DNA of 64,000 bases from Kineococcus aurantiacus (lineage in GTDB: Bacteria; Actinomycetota; Actinomycetes; Actinomycetales; Kineococcaceae). Under the pieces are notes generated by a model that did no database searches, was not told the origin of the DNA, and saw nothing but the letters and a program-made list of their open reading frames with translations. The position numbers and the translations under genes are program-made. The first letter of the stretch is position 1. Each line of letters begins with the position of its first letter. Below are positions 16,534-23,302 of the stretch, in pieces. The DNA lies in contig NZ_JACCBB010000001.1 of assembly GCF_013409345.1 (NCBI RefSeq), positions 310,001 to 374,000 on the forward strand. Direction: 5' to 3'.

Positions 16534-16908
16534 GAGGCTCCCTGGTGTCGGCGGCGGGGTGCGCCGAAGAGTCTACGTCCGGGCCGCGGGGCTCCCCGCG
16601 GTCGCGCGCCCGGCGCCGGGGACCGCCCGCGCGCCCGGACGGGTGAACGTGGGCGGTCCCCGGACCGGGCACGCACCGTCCGCAGTGGTCGACGCTGAGC
16701 GACTGCGCGACGACACCCCGTCGCGGTGGGGCTCCGTCCGGGCGCGGTGGACGCCCTGTGGGGACGGGCTGGGCCCCGACGGCGGTCCCGGGCGCCCGGG
16801 AGCGCGGCTCCGGGGGGTCCCCGGGAACCGGCCGGGGGAGGTGTGCACTCGCGCATACTTCCTGCGACCCGCGCCCTCCAGGGCGCCGCGGACCCCTTGG
16901 AGCCCTCC
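16534..16908. other. Divergent intergenic region between def and the pectinesterase gene
   Basis: 375 bases without a supported gene. On the minus strand there is a possible def -10 box (TAGACT, 16570-16575). On the plus strand CATACT at 16854-16859 is a plausible -10 for the pectinesterase gene, placing its transcript start about 45 bases before the GTG. The rest is very GC-rich, with no convincing palindrome or RNA element. Confidence 0.4.
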
Positions 16909-19900
16909 GTGCACCCACCCGTCCCCGCCCCCGGACGCCGCCAGCGGCGGCGCACCCTGCTGGCCGGCGGCACCACCGCCCTGGCCATGGCCGGACTCCT
17001 CGTCACCGCCCCGGCCGCGCAGGCCGCCGACACCACCGCCCCCGGCGTCCCCTCCTCGGTGAAGGTGGCCTACTACGGCGGCGTCGGCGCGCAGGTCGCG
17101 TGGGGCAAGGTGTCGGCCGGCGACCTGGACCACTACGCGGTGTACCGCAGCACCTCCTCGACCGTGGACCCGCGGACCGCGACCCTCGTGGCGAGCACGC
17201 GCGAGCTGTCCGCCGTGGACGCCGCGATCGCCGCCGGCGGCAAGGCGTACTACGCGGTCAGCGCCGTCGACACCAGCGGCAACGCCTCCCGGCCCTCCTC
17301 GGCCGTGTCGGTGACCGCCACCGACACCACCGCCCCCGCCGCCCCGAGCGGTCTGACGACGGCCACCACCGCGGGCGCGACCACCCTGACCTGGACGGCG
17401 ACCCCCGCCCCGGACAGCACCGCGTTCCGCGTCTACCGCGCCGCGACCTCCACCCGGCCGGCCACCCCGCTGGTCACCGTGGACGCCGCGGGCGGCACCG
17501 GCCGGTTCGCGGACACCACCGCCCCCGCCGGGAAGTCCACCTACTGGGTCGTCGCCGTGGACCGCACCGGCAACGCCTCCTCGGCCGCCTCCACGAGCGT
17601 CACCCGCAGCGCCGCGGCCACGCCCGCGCCCGGCCCCACGCCCACCACCCCGGCGCCCACGCCGACGCCCACGCCGACCCCGACCGCCGTGCCCGCCACG
17701 CCGTCCTCGGGCAAGGCCGTCATCACCGGTGGGGTCGCGACGATCTCCTGGAGCCCCGTCAAGGGAGCGGCCGGGTACGTCGTGTGCAAGCGCATCGGCG
17801 GGCAGGACGACGCCCGCACCTACCAGGTGTGGAGCCCGGTGACCGGGAAGGTCACCGGCACCGGGGAGTGCACCAAGACGCTCGTGCCCGCGGCCGGCGA
17901 CCTGTTCACCGGTACCTCGTTCACCGACCGCGACGCGAGCGAGGGCACCACCAGCTACTACCGGGTGTACGCCTGGAACGCCAAGGGCCTGTCCGGCTAC
18001 GCCGGCATCACGGCGAACAACCCGATGGTGGCCCCGGCGCAGGTCACCGGCCTCAAGGTCGCGCAGGCCGGCGGCACCGCCCCGCACGGGCTCGTGCTGA
18101 CCTGGGCGGCGGGCAAGGACACCGACCTCGCCGGGTACACCGTCTCGCGGGCCTCGACCTCCAGCGGGACCTACGCCGTCCTGGGGACCGTCGCCGCCGG
18201 GAGCACCACGTTCGCCGACACCAGCGCCCCCCGGGGCGTGGCGAGCTACTACCGCGTCACGGCCAGCGACGTCCTCGGCAACGTCTCGAAGGTGTCGGCG
18301 ACCGTGTCGGCCACCTCGACCACCACCCCGGTACCCCTGGTCGTGACCTACCGCGAACTCGTCGTCGACCCCGCCGCGCCCGCCGACGCCACGCACTTCC
18401 GCACCGTCACCGACGCCGTCGCCGCGGTCCCGAGCAGCAACGTCACCCCGACGCGCATCACGATCGCCGCCGGCACGTACCACGAGAGCTTCCGCGTCAC
18501 CTCGCCGTACCTCACGCTCGTGGGCGCCACCGGGGACCCGGCCGACGTCGTGATCGACGACGACAAGGCCTCCGGCCAGATCGACCCCGCCGACGGGGAG
18601 CCCTACGGCACGGCCGGCAGCTGGACGGTGTTCGTCGACGCCCCCGAGGTGACGTTCGAGGACCTCACCGTCCGGAACTCCTTCGACGAGAAGTCGCAGG
18701 ACCTGGCCAAGGAGCAGGCCGTCGCGCTGCGCGTCGAGGGCAACCACTTCGTCGCCGACCACGTGCGGCTCATCGGCAACCAGGACACCCTGCTGGCCGA
18801 CACCCCCAAACCCACCACCCGGGTGCGGCAGTACTACGTGAACTCCTACGTCGAAGGGGACGTCGACTACGTGTTCGGCGCCGCGACGGCGGTGTTCGAC
18901 AACACGGTGTTCCGCTCCCTGGACCGCGGCAAGGCCGACAACGGTGCCATCACCGCGGCCAGCACCGACACCGGCAGCAAGTACGGGTTCCTCGTCCAGA
19001 ACTCCAAGGTCGTCAGCGACGCCGCCCCCGGGACCGTCCACCTCGGCCGCCCCTGGCACCCGAGCGCCGACCCCGACGCGATCGCCCAGGTCACCTTCAA
19101 GAACACCTGGCTGCCGGCCGCCATCGACACCGCCCAGCCGTGGGAGGACATGTCCTCCACGAACTCCTCGGGCACCAAGGTCGACTTCAGCTGGACCGAC
19201 GCGCGGTTCGCCGAGTACGGCAGCACCGGCCCCGGGGCGGGCGTCAACGCCAACCGCCCCCAGCTGACCGCCAGCGCCGCGGCCGCCGCGACCCCGGCGA
19301 AGTACCTCGCCGGCTCCGACGGCTGGGACCCCACGACCGCGCACCCCGCCGTCGTGCCCGCCGTCCCCGCCGCCCCGCTCGGGCTCGTCGCCGCGGGCGG
19401 GGACCGCACCGTCCAGCTCTCCTGGGACGGCACCACCGCCGCCGACGTCGTCGCCTGGCGCACCACCCGCACCGCCGCCGACGGCACCGTCACCGACCTG
19501 GGCACCACCCAGAGCCCGGTCTTCTCCGACGGCACGGTGACCCCCGGCGCGGAGTACCGCTACAGCGTGAGCGCCGTCAACCGCGCCGGGGTCGCCTCGG
19601 CGCCCAGCGCGCCCGTCACCGTCACCGCGGTCGCCGCGCCGCTCGTGCCGAGCCTGTTCGTCGACCCGGCCGCCACCCCTGACGCCACGCACTTCCGGAC
19701 CGTCGCCGCGGCGCTGGCCGCCGCCCCGGCGGGGACCGCCGCGCGGCCCACCGTCATCGGCGTCGCCGCCGGGCGCTACCCGGAGTACCTCAACGTCACC
19801 ACCCCCGGCGTCGTGCTCGTCGGCGCCACGGGCGACGCCTCCGACGTCGTCATCACCGGCAACCGCGCCGCGGGCACCCCGCTGCCCGACGGCTCGGGCA

Positions 19901-22900
19901 CGTACGGCACCGCCGGCAGCGCGACCGTCGTCGTCACCGCCTCCGACGTGCAGTTCCGGCACCTGACGGTGGAGAACGCCTACGTCGAGGGCACCTACGC
20001 CAACGGCCAGGCCGTGGCCCTGCGCACCGTCGGGGACCGGCTCGTCTTCGACGACGTCCGGCTCCTCGGCGACCAGGACACCCTGTACGCGAACTCGGCG
20101 AGCACCACCGCCGCGGCCCGCTCGTACTTCGTGAACTCCTACGTGGAGGGCGACGTCGACTTCGTCTTCGGCCGCGGGACCGTCGTGTTCGACCGCAGCA
20201 CCCTGTTCGCCAACGACCACGGCACCAACCCCAACGGGGCCGTCACCGCGGCCAGCACCGACCAGGGCAACGGGTTCGGGGTCCTCGTCACGGGCAGCCG
20301 CATCACGGGCAACGCCCCCGACGGGTCGCAGAACCTGGGCCGCCCCTGGCAGCCCGGGATCACCAACCCCGACGGCACCACCGGCCGCAACACGGCCGCC
20401 AGCGCGCAGGTCGTCGTGCGCGACTCCTGGCTGGGCCCGGTCGTGCGCACGGGCGAGCCGTGGACGTCGATGGTGAACTCCGGCTACACCACCTCCCCGC
20501 AGGAGGCCCGGTTCGCCGAGTTCGGCAACACCGGCCCCGGCGCCACCCGCCCCGGCGCCACCTACGCCCCGCAGCTGAGCGCCGCCGACGCGGCCCGCTA
20601 CACCGCGGAGACGTACCTGGCCGGCACCGACGGCTGGAACCCCGTGCGCCCGGCCGCGGCCGACGAGGCCCCGGCCGCCCCCGCCGGCCTGCAGGTCGCC
20701 GGTGACGACGACCGGGCCGCGCTGACGTGGACGGAGTCGGCCGAGCCCGACGTCGTCGGCTACCGCGTCTACCGCGCCACCGGCCAGATCGCCCCCGACC
20801 TCACCGACGCGAACCTGGTCGGCACCGTGGCCAAGGCCGCGTTCACCGACACCGGCGTGCGCAACGGCACGGCGTACACCTACGCCGTGGTCACCCTCGA
20901 CGCCGGCGGCCACGCCTCCGCGCCGGTCACCGCGACCGTCACCCCGGCCCCGGCCCCCCTCGTCGTCGACGCGACCGTCGCCGCCGACGGCAGCGGGGAC
21001 TACCGGACCCTGGGCGCCGCGCTCGCCGCGCTGCCCGACGGCACCGCGACCGACCCCACCGTGGTCTCGATCGCGGCCGGCACCTACCGCGAGGTCGTCT
21101 CCTCGGCGCGCAAGAACCTCGTCCTGGTGGGCGCCACGGGGAACCCGGCCGACGTCGTCATCAGCTACGACAACGCCAACGGGACGGCCAAGGGCGCCAC
21201 CACCTGCCCGGCCGTGACCGCCGCCACCTGCGGCACCGCCGGCAGCGCCGTCCTCACCCTGTCCGGGTCGAACGTCCGGGTGCGGGACCTGACCGTCGCC
21301 AACACCTTCGACGCCACCGCCCACCCCGAGGTCGGCCCGTACAACACGCAGGCCGTGGCGCTGCGGGCCCTCGGTGACCGGCAGGTCTACTCCCACGTCC
21401 GGCTGCTGGGCGCCCAGGACACCCTGAACGCCGACGCCGCCGGGAACATCAGCGCCGACGGCAGCGGCTACCCGCGCCAGTACTACGTCGACAGCGTCGT
21501 GCAGGGCAACGTCGACTACGTCTTCGGCCGGGCCACCGCGGTGTTCGAGCGCACGACGTTCGTCTCCACCGCCAAGAACGGCGGGACGGTGTTCGCGCCC
21601 AGCACGGCCTCGAAGGCCAAGGGCTACCTGGTCCTCGACAGCCGGTTCACCAGCGCGAACACCGGGTCGTTCTTCCTGGGCCGCCCGTGGCGCTCCTGGT
21701 CCGACGGCGCCTACGCCGACGACTCGCGCGGGCAGACCTGGATCCTCGACTCGTGGATGGCCGCCGGGTTCACCACGACCCAGCCGTGGGCGGACTTCGC
21801 GCCCAACGCCTGGACCGACGGCCGCTTCGCCGAGCACGGCACCACCGGCCCCGGCGCGGCGCTCACCGCGGGCCGTCCGCAGCTGACCGACGAGGTCGCC
21901 GCGGCGACCACCGCGGCGGGCTGGCTGGCCGGCACCGACGGCTGGAACCCGGTCGTGGCGGCCCCGGCCACCGACGCCGCCCCCGCGGCCCCGGCCGTGA
22001 CCGCGGCGGCCGGCGACGCCAGCGTCGCCCTGACCTGGGCCGAGTCGCCGGAGTCCGACGTCGTCGGCTACCGGGTGTACCGCCTCGGCGCGGGCGACCC
22101 CGTGCGGGTCACCACGGCCGACCTGACCGCCGCCGGGTACACCGTGCGCGGGCTGGTCAACGGCACCGCGGCCGCCTTCGCGGTCACCGCGGTCGACGCG
22201 GCCGGGCACGAGTCGGCGCTGTCCGCGCCGGCGGGCGCCACGCCGCAGCTGCGGGTGGACGCCGTCGTGGCCGCCGACGGCAGCGGGGGGTTCACGACCC
22301 TGCAGGCGGCGGTGGACGCGGCCCCGGCCGGGCGGCCGTGGACGGTCTCGGTGCGCCCGGGCACCTACGCCGGCACCACCACCATCGCCAAGGACGGGGT
22401 GACCGTCCTGGGTGCGACGGGGAACCCGGCCGACGTCGTGCTGACCAGCGAGGTCACCGGCAACGCCGCGACCCTGCGCGTCAGCGCGTCCTCGGTCACC
22501 CTGCGCGGGGTGACGGTGGCCAACGCGGCGGCCGTGCCGGCCGGGACCGCGCCGTCGAACCTCGTCGCCCCGGCGGTGTGGACCAGCGGTGACCGGATCG
22601 TCCTGCGGGACACCGTCGTGACCAGCGGCGGCGCCCGCGCGCTGTGGGCCGACGTGCCGACGGCGGGGGCCACGACGCACCAGCTGGTGGAGTCCTCCAC
22701 GGTGCGGGGCGCCTCGGACCTGCTGTTCGGGCGGGCCTCCCTAGTGGTGCGCGGCTCGACGCTGGTGCCCACGACGCCCTCGGCGTTCCTGGCCACCCCG
22801 GCCACGACCGCCGACGGCGGCCACGGGTTCCTCGTGACGGGGTCGACGGTCGCTCCCGCGGCGGGGGTCTCCGACGTCCGCTTCGCGCGGCCGTACGCCC

Positions 22901-23157
22901 AGTCCCCGCTGACCGGGCGCAACAACCCCGAGCTGGTCATCCGCGACACCGTCCTCAACGCCGGGATCAAGTCCAGCCCCTGGCAGAACAACGGGACGAC
23001 GCTGTGGACCGACGCCCGGTTCGCGGAGTACGCGAACACCGGCGCCGGGTCGGTGCCGGCGGCCACGGCCACCCGCCCGCAGCTGAGCCCGGAGGCGGCG
23101 GCCGGGTACACGGTGCAGGCGTGGCTGGGCGACGGGGACTGGTACCCCCGGTCCTGA
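16909..23157 (+). CDS. Secreted multidomain pectin methylesterase, FN3(x4)-[CE8-FN3](x3)-CE8
   Basis: A 2082-residue extracellular protein that should de-esterify pectin. A Sec signal peptide (RR-rich start, hydrophobic 17-34, cleavage near AQA at 39) precedes four FN3-like domains (about 45-475, with a Pro/Thr linker near 240-265). Four pectinesterase beta-helix modules follow at about 478-805, 919-1245, 1351-1680 and 1782-2082, separated by single FN3 domains. Catalytic residues are intact in modules 1-3: QD at 625-626, 1056-1057, 1503-1504; Asp at 653, 1084, 1536; Arg/Trp at 714/716, 1145/1147, 1592/1594. Module 4 has Ala1909 and Arg1910 in place of Gln-Asp, and Tyr for Trp, but keeps Asp1937 and Arg1994. 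There is no wall anchor motif. The GTG at 16909 follows a GGAG and directly begins the signal peptide. Confidence 0.93.
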   Translation: MHPPVPAPGRRQRRRTLLAGGTTALAMAGLLVTAPAAQAADTTAPGVPSSVKVAYYGGVGAQVAWGKVSAGDLDHYAVYRSTSSTVDPRTATLVASTRELSAVDAAIAAGGKAYYAVSAVDTSGNASRPSSAVSVTATDTTAPAAPSGLTTATTAGATTLTWTATPAPDSTAFRVYRAATSTRPATPLVTVDAAGGTGRFADTTAPAGKSTYWVVAVDRTGNASSAASTSVTRSAAATPAPGPTPTTPAPTPTPTPTPTAVPATPSSGKAVITGGVATISWSPVKGAAGYVVCKRIGGQDDARTYQVWSPVTGKVTGTGECTKTLVPAAGDLFTGTSFTDRDASEGTTSYYRVYAWNAKGLSGYAGITANNPMVAPAQVTGLKVAQAGGTAPHGLVLTWAAGKDTDLAGYTVSRASTSSGTYAVLGTVAAGSTTFADTSAPRGVASYYRVTASDVLGNVSKVSATVSATSTTTPVPLVVTYRELVVDPAAPADATHFRTVTDAVAAVPSSNVTPTRITIAAGTYHESFRVTSPYLTLVGATGDPADVVIDDDKASGQIDPADGEPYGTAGSWTVFVDAPEVTFEDLTVRNSFDEKSQDLAKEQAVALRVEGNHFVADHVRLIGNQDTLLADTPKPTTRVRQYYVNSYVEGDVDYVFGAATAVFDNTVFRSLDRGKADNGAITAASTDTGSKYGFLVQNSKVVSDAAPGTVHLGRPWHPSADPDAIAQVTFKNTWLPAAIDTAQPWEDMSSTNSSGTKVDFSWTDARFAEYGSTGPGAGVNANRPQLTASAAAAATPAKYLAGSDGWDPTTAHPAVVPAVPAAPLGLVAAGGDRTVQLSWDGTTAADVVAWRTTRTAADGTVTDLGTTQSPVFSDGTVTPGAEYRYSVSAVNRAGVASAPSAPVTVTAVAAPLVPSLFVDPAATPDATHFRTVAAALAAAPAGTAARPTVIGVAAGRYPEYLNVTTPGVVLVGATGDASDVVITGNRAAGTPLPDGSGTYGTAGSATVVVTASDVQFRHLTVENAYVEGTYANGQAVALRTVGDRLVFDDVRLLGDQDTLYANSASTTAAARSYFVNSYVEGDVDFVFGRGTVVFDRSTLFANDHGTNPNGAVTAASTDQGNGFGVLVTGSRITGNAPDGSQNLGRPWQPGITNPDGTTGRNTAASAQVVVRDSWLGPVVRTGEPWTSMVNSGYTTSPQEARFAEFGNTGPGATRPGATYAPQLSAADAARYTAETYLAGTDGWNPVRPAAADEAPAAPAGLQVAGDDDRAALTWTESAEPDVVGYRVYRATGQIAPDLTDANLVGTVAKAAFTDTGVRNGTAYTYAVVTLDAGGHASAPVTATVTPAPAPLVVDATVAADGSGDYRTLGAALAALPDGTATDPTVVSIAAGTYREVVSSARKNLVLVGATGNPADVVISYDNANGTAKGATTCPAVTAATCGTAGSAVLTLSGSNVRVRDLTVANTFDATAHPEVGPYNTQAVALRALGDRQVYSHVRLLGAQDTLNADAAGNISADGSGYPRQYYVDSVVQGNVDYVFGRATAVFERTTFVSTAKNGGTVFAPSTASKAKGYLVLDSRFTSANTGSFFLGRPWRSWSDGAYADDSRGQTWILDSWMAAGFTTTQPWADFAPNAWTDGRFAEHGTTGPGAALTAGRPQLTDEVAAATTAAGWLAGTDGWNPVVAAPATDAAPAAPAVTAAAGDASVALTWAESPESDVVGYRVYRLGAGDPVRVTTADLTAAGYTVRGLVNGTAAAFAVTAVDAAGHESALSAPAGATPQLRVDAVVAADGSGGFTTLQAAVDAAPAGRPWTVSVRPGTYAGTTTIAKDGVTVLGATGNPADVVLTSEVTGNAATLRVSASSVTLRGVTVANAAAVPAGTAPSNLVAPAVWTSGDRIVLRDTVVTSGGARALWADVPTAGATTHQLVESSTVRGASDLLFGRASLVVRGSTLVPTTPSAFLATPATTADGGHGFLVTGSTVAPAAGVSDVRFARPYAQSPLTGRNNPELVIRDTVLNAGIKSSPWQNNGTTLWTDARFAEYANTGAGSVPAATATRPQLSPEAAAGYTVQAWLGDGDWYPRS

Positions 23158-23176
23158 GCCCCGCTGAGCCCTGACC

Positions 23177-23211
23177 GCAGAGCCACCACCCGTCGCGGGT
23201 GGTGGCTCTGC
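23177..23211 (+). terminator. Strong terminator after the pectinesterase gene
   Basis: A perfect 15-bp inverted repeat, gcagagccaccaccc paired with gggtggtggctctgc around a five-base loop (gtcgc), starts 19 bases past the stop and is followed by gtgtct. It is a convincing intrinsic terminator. Confidence 0.9.
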
Positions 23212-23302
23212 GTGTCTGCGGTGGGCCCGGCGGGGGACCCGGCTGCGACGGGCGGGTGAGCACGGCGGGCCCCGCCGGGCCGCGCCGGGCGAGGGTGGGT
23301 CC

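Follow-up and report, generated by a model that had tools for sequence, protein, structure and literature searches.

A predicted four-module pectin methylesterase of Kineococcus aurantiacus with a probable non-catalytic accessory module at its C-terminus

The gene and its modular chain

The stretch of DNA analysed here, referred to as the window, covers 64,000 nucleotides of Kineococcus aurantiacus (contig NZ_JACCBB010000001.1, positions 310,001 to 374,000, assembly GCF_013409345.1) and carries, at 16909-23157 on the forward strand, the gene for a predicted secreted pectin methylesterase of 2082 residues with four CE8 modules. The first three modules look catalytically complete in their sequence, while the fourth lacks the catalytic Gln-Asp pair and is probably a retained non-enzymatic part of the protein rather than a decayed copy, given that the same degenerate clade is kept in eight other multi-CE8 proteins and the loss is thus not a private one. 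The reading frame starts with GTG, preceded by GGAG with a six-base spacer, and it is regarded as a real gene because its third-position GC content is 0.98-1.00 in each 200-codon block. Pfam recognizes four Pectinesterase stretches in the chain (E 2.4e-101), and a six-frame search of the genome with PF01095 gave four matches, none of them outside this frame (with scores of 104.7, 100.6, 97.7 and 50.8 bits), and no further CE8 gene. The arrangement proposed in the initial annotation, four CE8 modules separated by FN3 domains in a single chain, is confirmed.

All features described below lie on the forward strand unless stated otherwise. The chain begins with a signal-peptide-like N-terminus (16909-17025; a basic stretch, a hydrophobic core and AQA|AD, recognized by eye from the translation). 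It is followed at 17026-18348 by a region with a Pro-Thr linker and roughly four repeats that resemble FN3 or Ig domains, likewise assigned by eye; four single segments of this repeat region gave no Pfam match above the cut-off, and FN3 was not named there. Module 1 (residues 484-809; 18358-19335) is catalytically complete, with Q603, Q625-D626, D653, R714 and W716, and the catalytic set is also complete in module 2 (residues 916-1246; 19654-20646) and module 3 (residues 1351-1682; 20959-21954). All three score above the PF01095 cut-off and, as the initial annotation had stated and the alignment bears out, keep the Gln-Asp pair, the nucleophile Asp, the Arg and the Trp. Module 4 (residues 1781-2081; 22249-23151) is degenerate and C-terminal. 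FN3 domains occupy all three inter-module linkers: those between modules 2 and 3 (20677-20934, E 4.3e-06) and between modules 3 and 4 (21982-22230, E 1.8e-06) exceed the Pfam cut-off of 25 bits (scores 28.5 and 27.3 bits), and that between modules 1 and 2 (19372-19623, E 6.4e-05) lies just under it at 23.5 bits.

Shortly past the stop codon, at 23176-23212, two perfectly complementary 16-bp arms of an inverted repeat enclose a loop of 5 bases. No T-run follows, so this may be a T-less terminator; a promoter and terminator scan listed nothing. On the reverse strand, an open frame of 2035 codons' worth of residues (16573-22680) runs antisense to most of the pectinesterase gene and is read as a by-product of the very high third-position GC content, not as a gene.

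Residues lost and kept in module 4

Residues are mapped here to PemA, a pectin methylesterase of Dickeya, through a phmmer alignment of module 1; counted from the chain start, the catalytic pair of PemA is Q177-D178 and its nucleophile D199. In module 4 the pair is replaced by Ala1909-Arg1910 (22633-22638), in an alignment that is free of gaps at the site. The nucleophile position is kept as Asp1937 (22717-22719), and in Arg1994-Pro-Tyr1996 (22888-22896) the Arg is kept (R267) and the Trp has become Tyr (W269). These five residues are found in the translation at the numbers first assigned to them. Moreover, Val replaces the Gln of the QAVAL motif and the Thr109 loop is gone, so that, compared with PemA, module 4 is without Q153, Q177, D178, W269 and this loop. 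It nevertheless remains above the PF01095 cut-off (50.8 versus 27 bits).

The model of module 4 (mean predicted local distance difference test score, pLDDT, 71), built from a four-row alignment of the window's modules only and compared over the whole fold, has PemA as its best match (Z 30.4, 286 aligned residues, 3.0 Å, 22% identity); the corresponding figures for the model of module 1 (pLDDT 75) against PemA are Z 35.8, 310 residues, 2.7 Å and 34% identity. This beta-helix model close to PemA, together with the C-terminal position, suits an accessory module. Module 4 thus has the homology and fold of a CE8 enzyme and its nucleophile Asp and Arg, but neither the acid/base Asp nor the oxyanion Gln. 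Among the residues that are new to its type, Asp, Glu, Gln and His are nowhere conserved in at least six of the seven members of that type described below. That it is a pseudoenzyme, predicted to be unable to carry out CE8 chemistry, is well supported: the initial annotation had called it a probable pseudoenzyme, and the gap-free Ala-Arg replacement, the Arg shared by all seven orthologues and the lack of a conserved replacement acid all strengthen that judgement.

A family of degenerate modules in related arrays

CE8 arrays are rare among relatives, in agreement with the initial annotation, which had considered such a tetramer unusual for bacteria. CE8 was found in 46 of 396 genomes sampled from the order, and at least two CE8 modules in one frame in four of these 46, with four modules in G000 (the genome of the window), three in G008, two in G309 and five in G141. 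In the family of G141 (f19), arrays occur in 7 of 199 genomes (G141, G905, G887, G841, G752, G876 and G781). Multi-CE8 proteins therefore number ten, and the nine besides that of the window come from its genus (one), f19 (seven) and another family, f6 (one). Relatives were collected as the best 30 loci at most per search, best matches first; five loci that came from one contig scan had no match to the CE8 profile, and a plasmid search returned 17 records, every one below 60% identity.

Degenerate modules are present in eight of these nine proteins, one or two in each, giving 15 with that of the window. The array of G008 has two active modules and a degenerate one, and six of the seven f19 arrays follow a plan of three active and two degenerate modules, the G781 copy being interrupted. 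This latter gene (L126), with five modules, is split into several frames by stops or frame breaks and is intact in G905, of the same genus; it is either a pseudogene or the product of sequencing error. The G876 array (L125:6225-14708) lies in a frame of 2828 residues with a PA14 domain, four CE8 modules and a C-terminal GDSL hydrolase domain; its first CE8 module is degenerate and its last carries Gln-Asn. Among the papers listed in the literature searched, as far as titles and the beginnings of abstracts go, none describes a degenerate CE8 module within an array.

The residue survey took in 99 modules, with background matches of at least 80 bits over at least 200 profile positions, and thus covered few weak single-module CE8 matches. 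The full set of six catalytic residues is present in 81 modules and 15 are degenerate; of the other three, G781_M6 is complete as far as its sequence goes, L103 is without the QAVAL Gln only, and G876_M4 has Gln-Asn and no QAVAL Gln and keeps the Trp. The Gln-Asp pair and the Trp are both missing only in the 15 degenerate modules, all of them in multi-CE8 proteins.

Seven of the 15 are of the type of module 4 and eight belong to a second type, named after module 5. None has Gln-Asp, Trp has changed to Tyr in every one, and the nucleophile Asp and the Arg are retained in 14. Position 178 is Arg in all seven module-4 types, and Gln (6), Lys (1) or Arg (1) in the module-5 types, six of which have Lys at 177, so that a basic residue stands at 177 or 178 in 15 of 15. 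Compared with the 22 active array modules, positions 109, 177, 178, 198, 202 and 269 are altered in nearly all degenerate ones, the exceptions being Phe at 202 in module 4 of the window, Thr at 109 in module 1 of G876 and Gln at 177 in module 5 of G141; a Glu-to-Gly column is also among the changes. All seven module-4 types have Pro at position 1888 and an alignment gap at the Thr109 loop, and all have lost the QAVAL Gln, which four of the eight module-5 types keep. The module-5 types show an Asp directly before the old Gln-Asp pair in eight of eight (for example L063:12203-13069), against 3 of 22 active modules, and a second acid further on in seven of eight (Asp in six, Glu in one), where active modules have Ala or Phe. 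With this invariant Asp before the old site, the module-5 type may have a different story from that of module 4; its sub-clade is absent from the window.

Origin and constraint of the degenerate modules

In a tree of 66 modules computed without the six catalytic columns, for which 17 of the 50 background modules were taken and L103 and two short pieces of G781 omitted, the 15 degenerate modules form one clade with support of 97/90, to which the Glu-to-Gly column and the remnant of the Thr109 loop, both kept in the alignment, may contribute. Within it, the module-4 and module-5 types form sub-clades with supports of 100/100 and 100/98, respectively. A single origin of the catalytic loss is thus favoured by the tree, though not proven, and two losses are possible by the approximately unbiased (AU) test, which did not reject a grouping of module 4 with module 3 (p 0.17) and gave a marginal result for one of module 5 with module 3 (p 0.064).

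Each of modules 1, 2, 3 and 4 of the window groups with its same-numbered counterparts from six f19 genomes, in a clade of seven rows (100/100). Since the modules group by number across families, the array either predates the split of these lineages or was moved as a whole. Duplication within the genus, an origin that the initial annotation had put forward for consideration, found no support and is rejected on account of these same-numbered clades, which extend into another family.

The ratio of nonsynonymous to synonymous substitution rates (dN/dS) was estimated by the NG86 method for four pairs of genomes. For G905/G887 the degenerate modules gave 0.22 and 0.18, against 0.24-0.28 for the active ones, and for G905/G781, where two of the G781 modules are partial, 0.23 and 0.22 against 0.16-0.32. 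In these two closest pairs, degenerate modules are constrained about as strongly as active ones.

Possible roles of module 4 and alternative explanations

The preferred explanation, held with moderate confidence, is that module 4 is an old, selected, non-catalytic CE8 accessory module of a giant pectin methylesterase, probably one that holds substrate or product. An ancestral module would have lost catalysis, probably in a single event, and what was left of it would have been kept as a non-catalytic accessory module at the C-terminus of an FN3-linked chain with three catalytically complete modules. Like a carbohydrate-binding module, module 4 would most likely hold the protein to pectin or pectate while modules 1-3 remove methyl groups. 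Net charge lends this some plausibility in the case of the module-4 type, which is less acidic than most active modules (0 to -3 compared with -2 to -19), as repulsion of a polyanion would be lessened; module-5 types, at -2 to -15, are not clearly less acidic.

Several observations weigh against this explanation. Conservation around the seven site columns, up to a distance of three columns (six rows per set), is 0.86-0.93 in modules 1-3 compared with 0.68-0.71 elsewhere, a level reached in 0 of 300 random draws for each, but in the module-4 types the old site is conserved at 0.58 and the rest at 0.56, with 98 of 300 draws as high. Without G752, which leaves five rows, the values become 0.64 and 0.58 (38 of 300 draws), and in the module-5 types the old site is weakly conserved, at 0.66 versus 0.59 (29 of 300). 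The subsite -1/-2 contact positions (Thr109, Gln153, Phe202 and Trp269) are mostly altered in degenerate modules, judging by the pectin-contact residues listed in PMC10530356, with a further contact list in PMC3913658. Module-4 types are also poor in aromatic residues, with 14-18 versus 22-31 in full-length active array modules; four catalytically complete single modules (G003, G005, G076 and G262) are equally poor in them. Module 4 of G752 has lost both the Asp and the Arg, and in G309, whose 795-residue frame is cut on its N-terminal side by the contig end, both modules are active and the C-terminus, which is complete, carries no degenerate one. Taken together, site conservation and composition are explained at least as well by selection acting on the fold, or on a different surface, as by reuse of the groove, and a binding or processivity role for module 4 is a hypothesis on which the evidence is mixed.

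A purely structural role, in which module 4 would be a rigid beta-helical end-piece serving folding, protease resistance or spacing and binding no ligand, is possible, although it is considered unlikely. Conservation at the level of the fold and not of the old site in particular, the scarcity of aromatic residues and the joint loss of Asp and Arg in G752, expected if these two mainly pair with each other, all speak for it. On the other hand, spending about 300 residues of CE8 fold on a spacer is costly in a chain that already has FN3 domains for this purpose, and residues at or near the old site are specific to the clade (the Arg and Pro 1888 in all seven module-4 types, the Tyr in all 15). 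Ordinary decay, meaning a duplicated module that is inactive and drifting, would account for the lower mean identity of module 4 (56% over six genomes; module 5, 64% over five) relative to modules 1-3 (70-73%), as well as for the relaxed dN/dS of module 4 in G905/G752 (0.79; active modules 0.31-0.42) and of module 5 in G141/G841 (0.68; active modules 0.42-0.51), of which the former is a further point against the preferred explanation. Yet the other degenerate module of each of these wider pairs (0.31 for module 5 and 0.42 for module 4, respectively) is no higher than most active ones, the values of the two closest pairs lie in or below the active range, and the frames have stayed open over deep divergence with an invariant Arg and Tyr, so that decay, already weakened, appears improbable.

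Another possibility is that the CE8 scaffold has taken on a different catalysis that uses the kept Asp and Arg, and the basic residue at 177 or 178 in every degenerate module and the conserved new acids of the module-5 types would agree with this. In the module-4 type, however, Asp, Glu, Gln and His have not been gained at any conserved position, and the old site shows no special conservation; for module 4 itself such an activity is judged very improbable. That module 4 is still a pectin methylesterase, with another acid acting in the site, is hardly credible: Asp1937 and Arg1994 would permit it, whereas both site Gln residues and the Trp are gone and no substitute acid, Gln or His is shared by six or more of its seven orthologues.

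When only one inactivated enzyme domain is at hand, it can hardly be told from a decaying copy. Here, the degenerate modules form a clade whose orthologues come from two or more families, the substitutions recur and active paralogues on the same chain act as built-in controls, which makes the role of a retained dead esterase directly testable. If module 4 does bind pectate, it would be a pectin-binding module made from an esterase.

Genomic setting and pectin depolymerases

The genome of the window has no match to the pectin depolymerase families PL1 and GH28. PL3 (PF03211) gave no match in it either, but as the control also matched nowhere, that negative carries no weight. Among the ten multi-CE8 genomes, G141 alone has a PL1 match and G781 alone a GH28 match, and eight have neither. 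GH28 was scored in these ten only. The frequency of PL1 (1 of 10) contrasts with that in the remaining CE8-bearing genomes sampled from the order (31 of 42; Fisher p 0.00035, relatedness ignored), six of the ten coming from a different sample than the 42. Pfam, at E 1e-5 or 1e-3, named no pectin gene among 24 selected flanking open reading frames (five in the window, four at L121, six at L123, five at L063 and four at L064), two of which had no match.

Demethylation without PL1 or GH28 depolymerases would suggest that methanol is used, or that pectate serves as a surface. Extending the preferred explanation in this direction, one might envisage a pseudo-esterase lineage in which the change of Asp to Arg, or of the pair to Lys-Gln, with the partner Asp and Arg kept, turned a negative pocket into a product-holding site, and bacteria mostly without PL1 and GH28 would strip methyl groups and stay on the pectate without digesting it. 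This fuller scenario is regarded as quite unlikely. A link to genomes without PL1 and GH28, if true, would indicate that pectin can be demethylated for ends other than depolymerization.

Comparison with known systems

YbhC of E. coli is a divergent, free-standing member of CE8. Its structure (PDB 3grh, with the molecule name acyl-CoA thioester hydrolase) has the CE8 fold and matches the model of module 4 less well than PemA does (Z 25.1, 260 aligned residues). In size, the window's protein resembles PmeC5 and other large Butyrivibrio pectinesterases (PDB 9mm2; PMC12109409), which are secreted, multidomain, CE8-based proteins of about 2000-2200 residues. In these, a PL9 lyase and domains that bind the wall accompany CE8, and the passages of PMC12109409 consulted describe no tandem or degenerate CE8 module for them.

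PemA of Dickeya (Erwinia chrysanthemi; PDB 1qjv) shares its family and fold with the modules of the window, and modules 1-3 carry its whole catalytic residue set, PemA itself being a single module. According to the title of PDB entry 2nsp, its D178A mutant was crystallized with a hexasaccharide, which means that binding can persist when this acid is lost. This D178A complex is the closest solved analogue of module 4.

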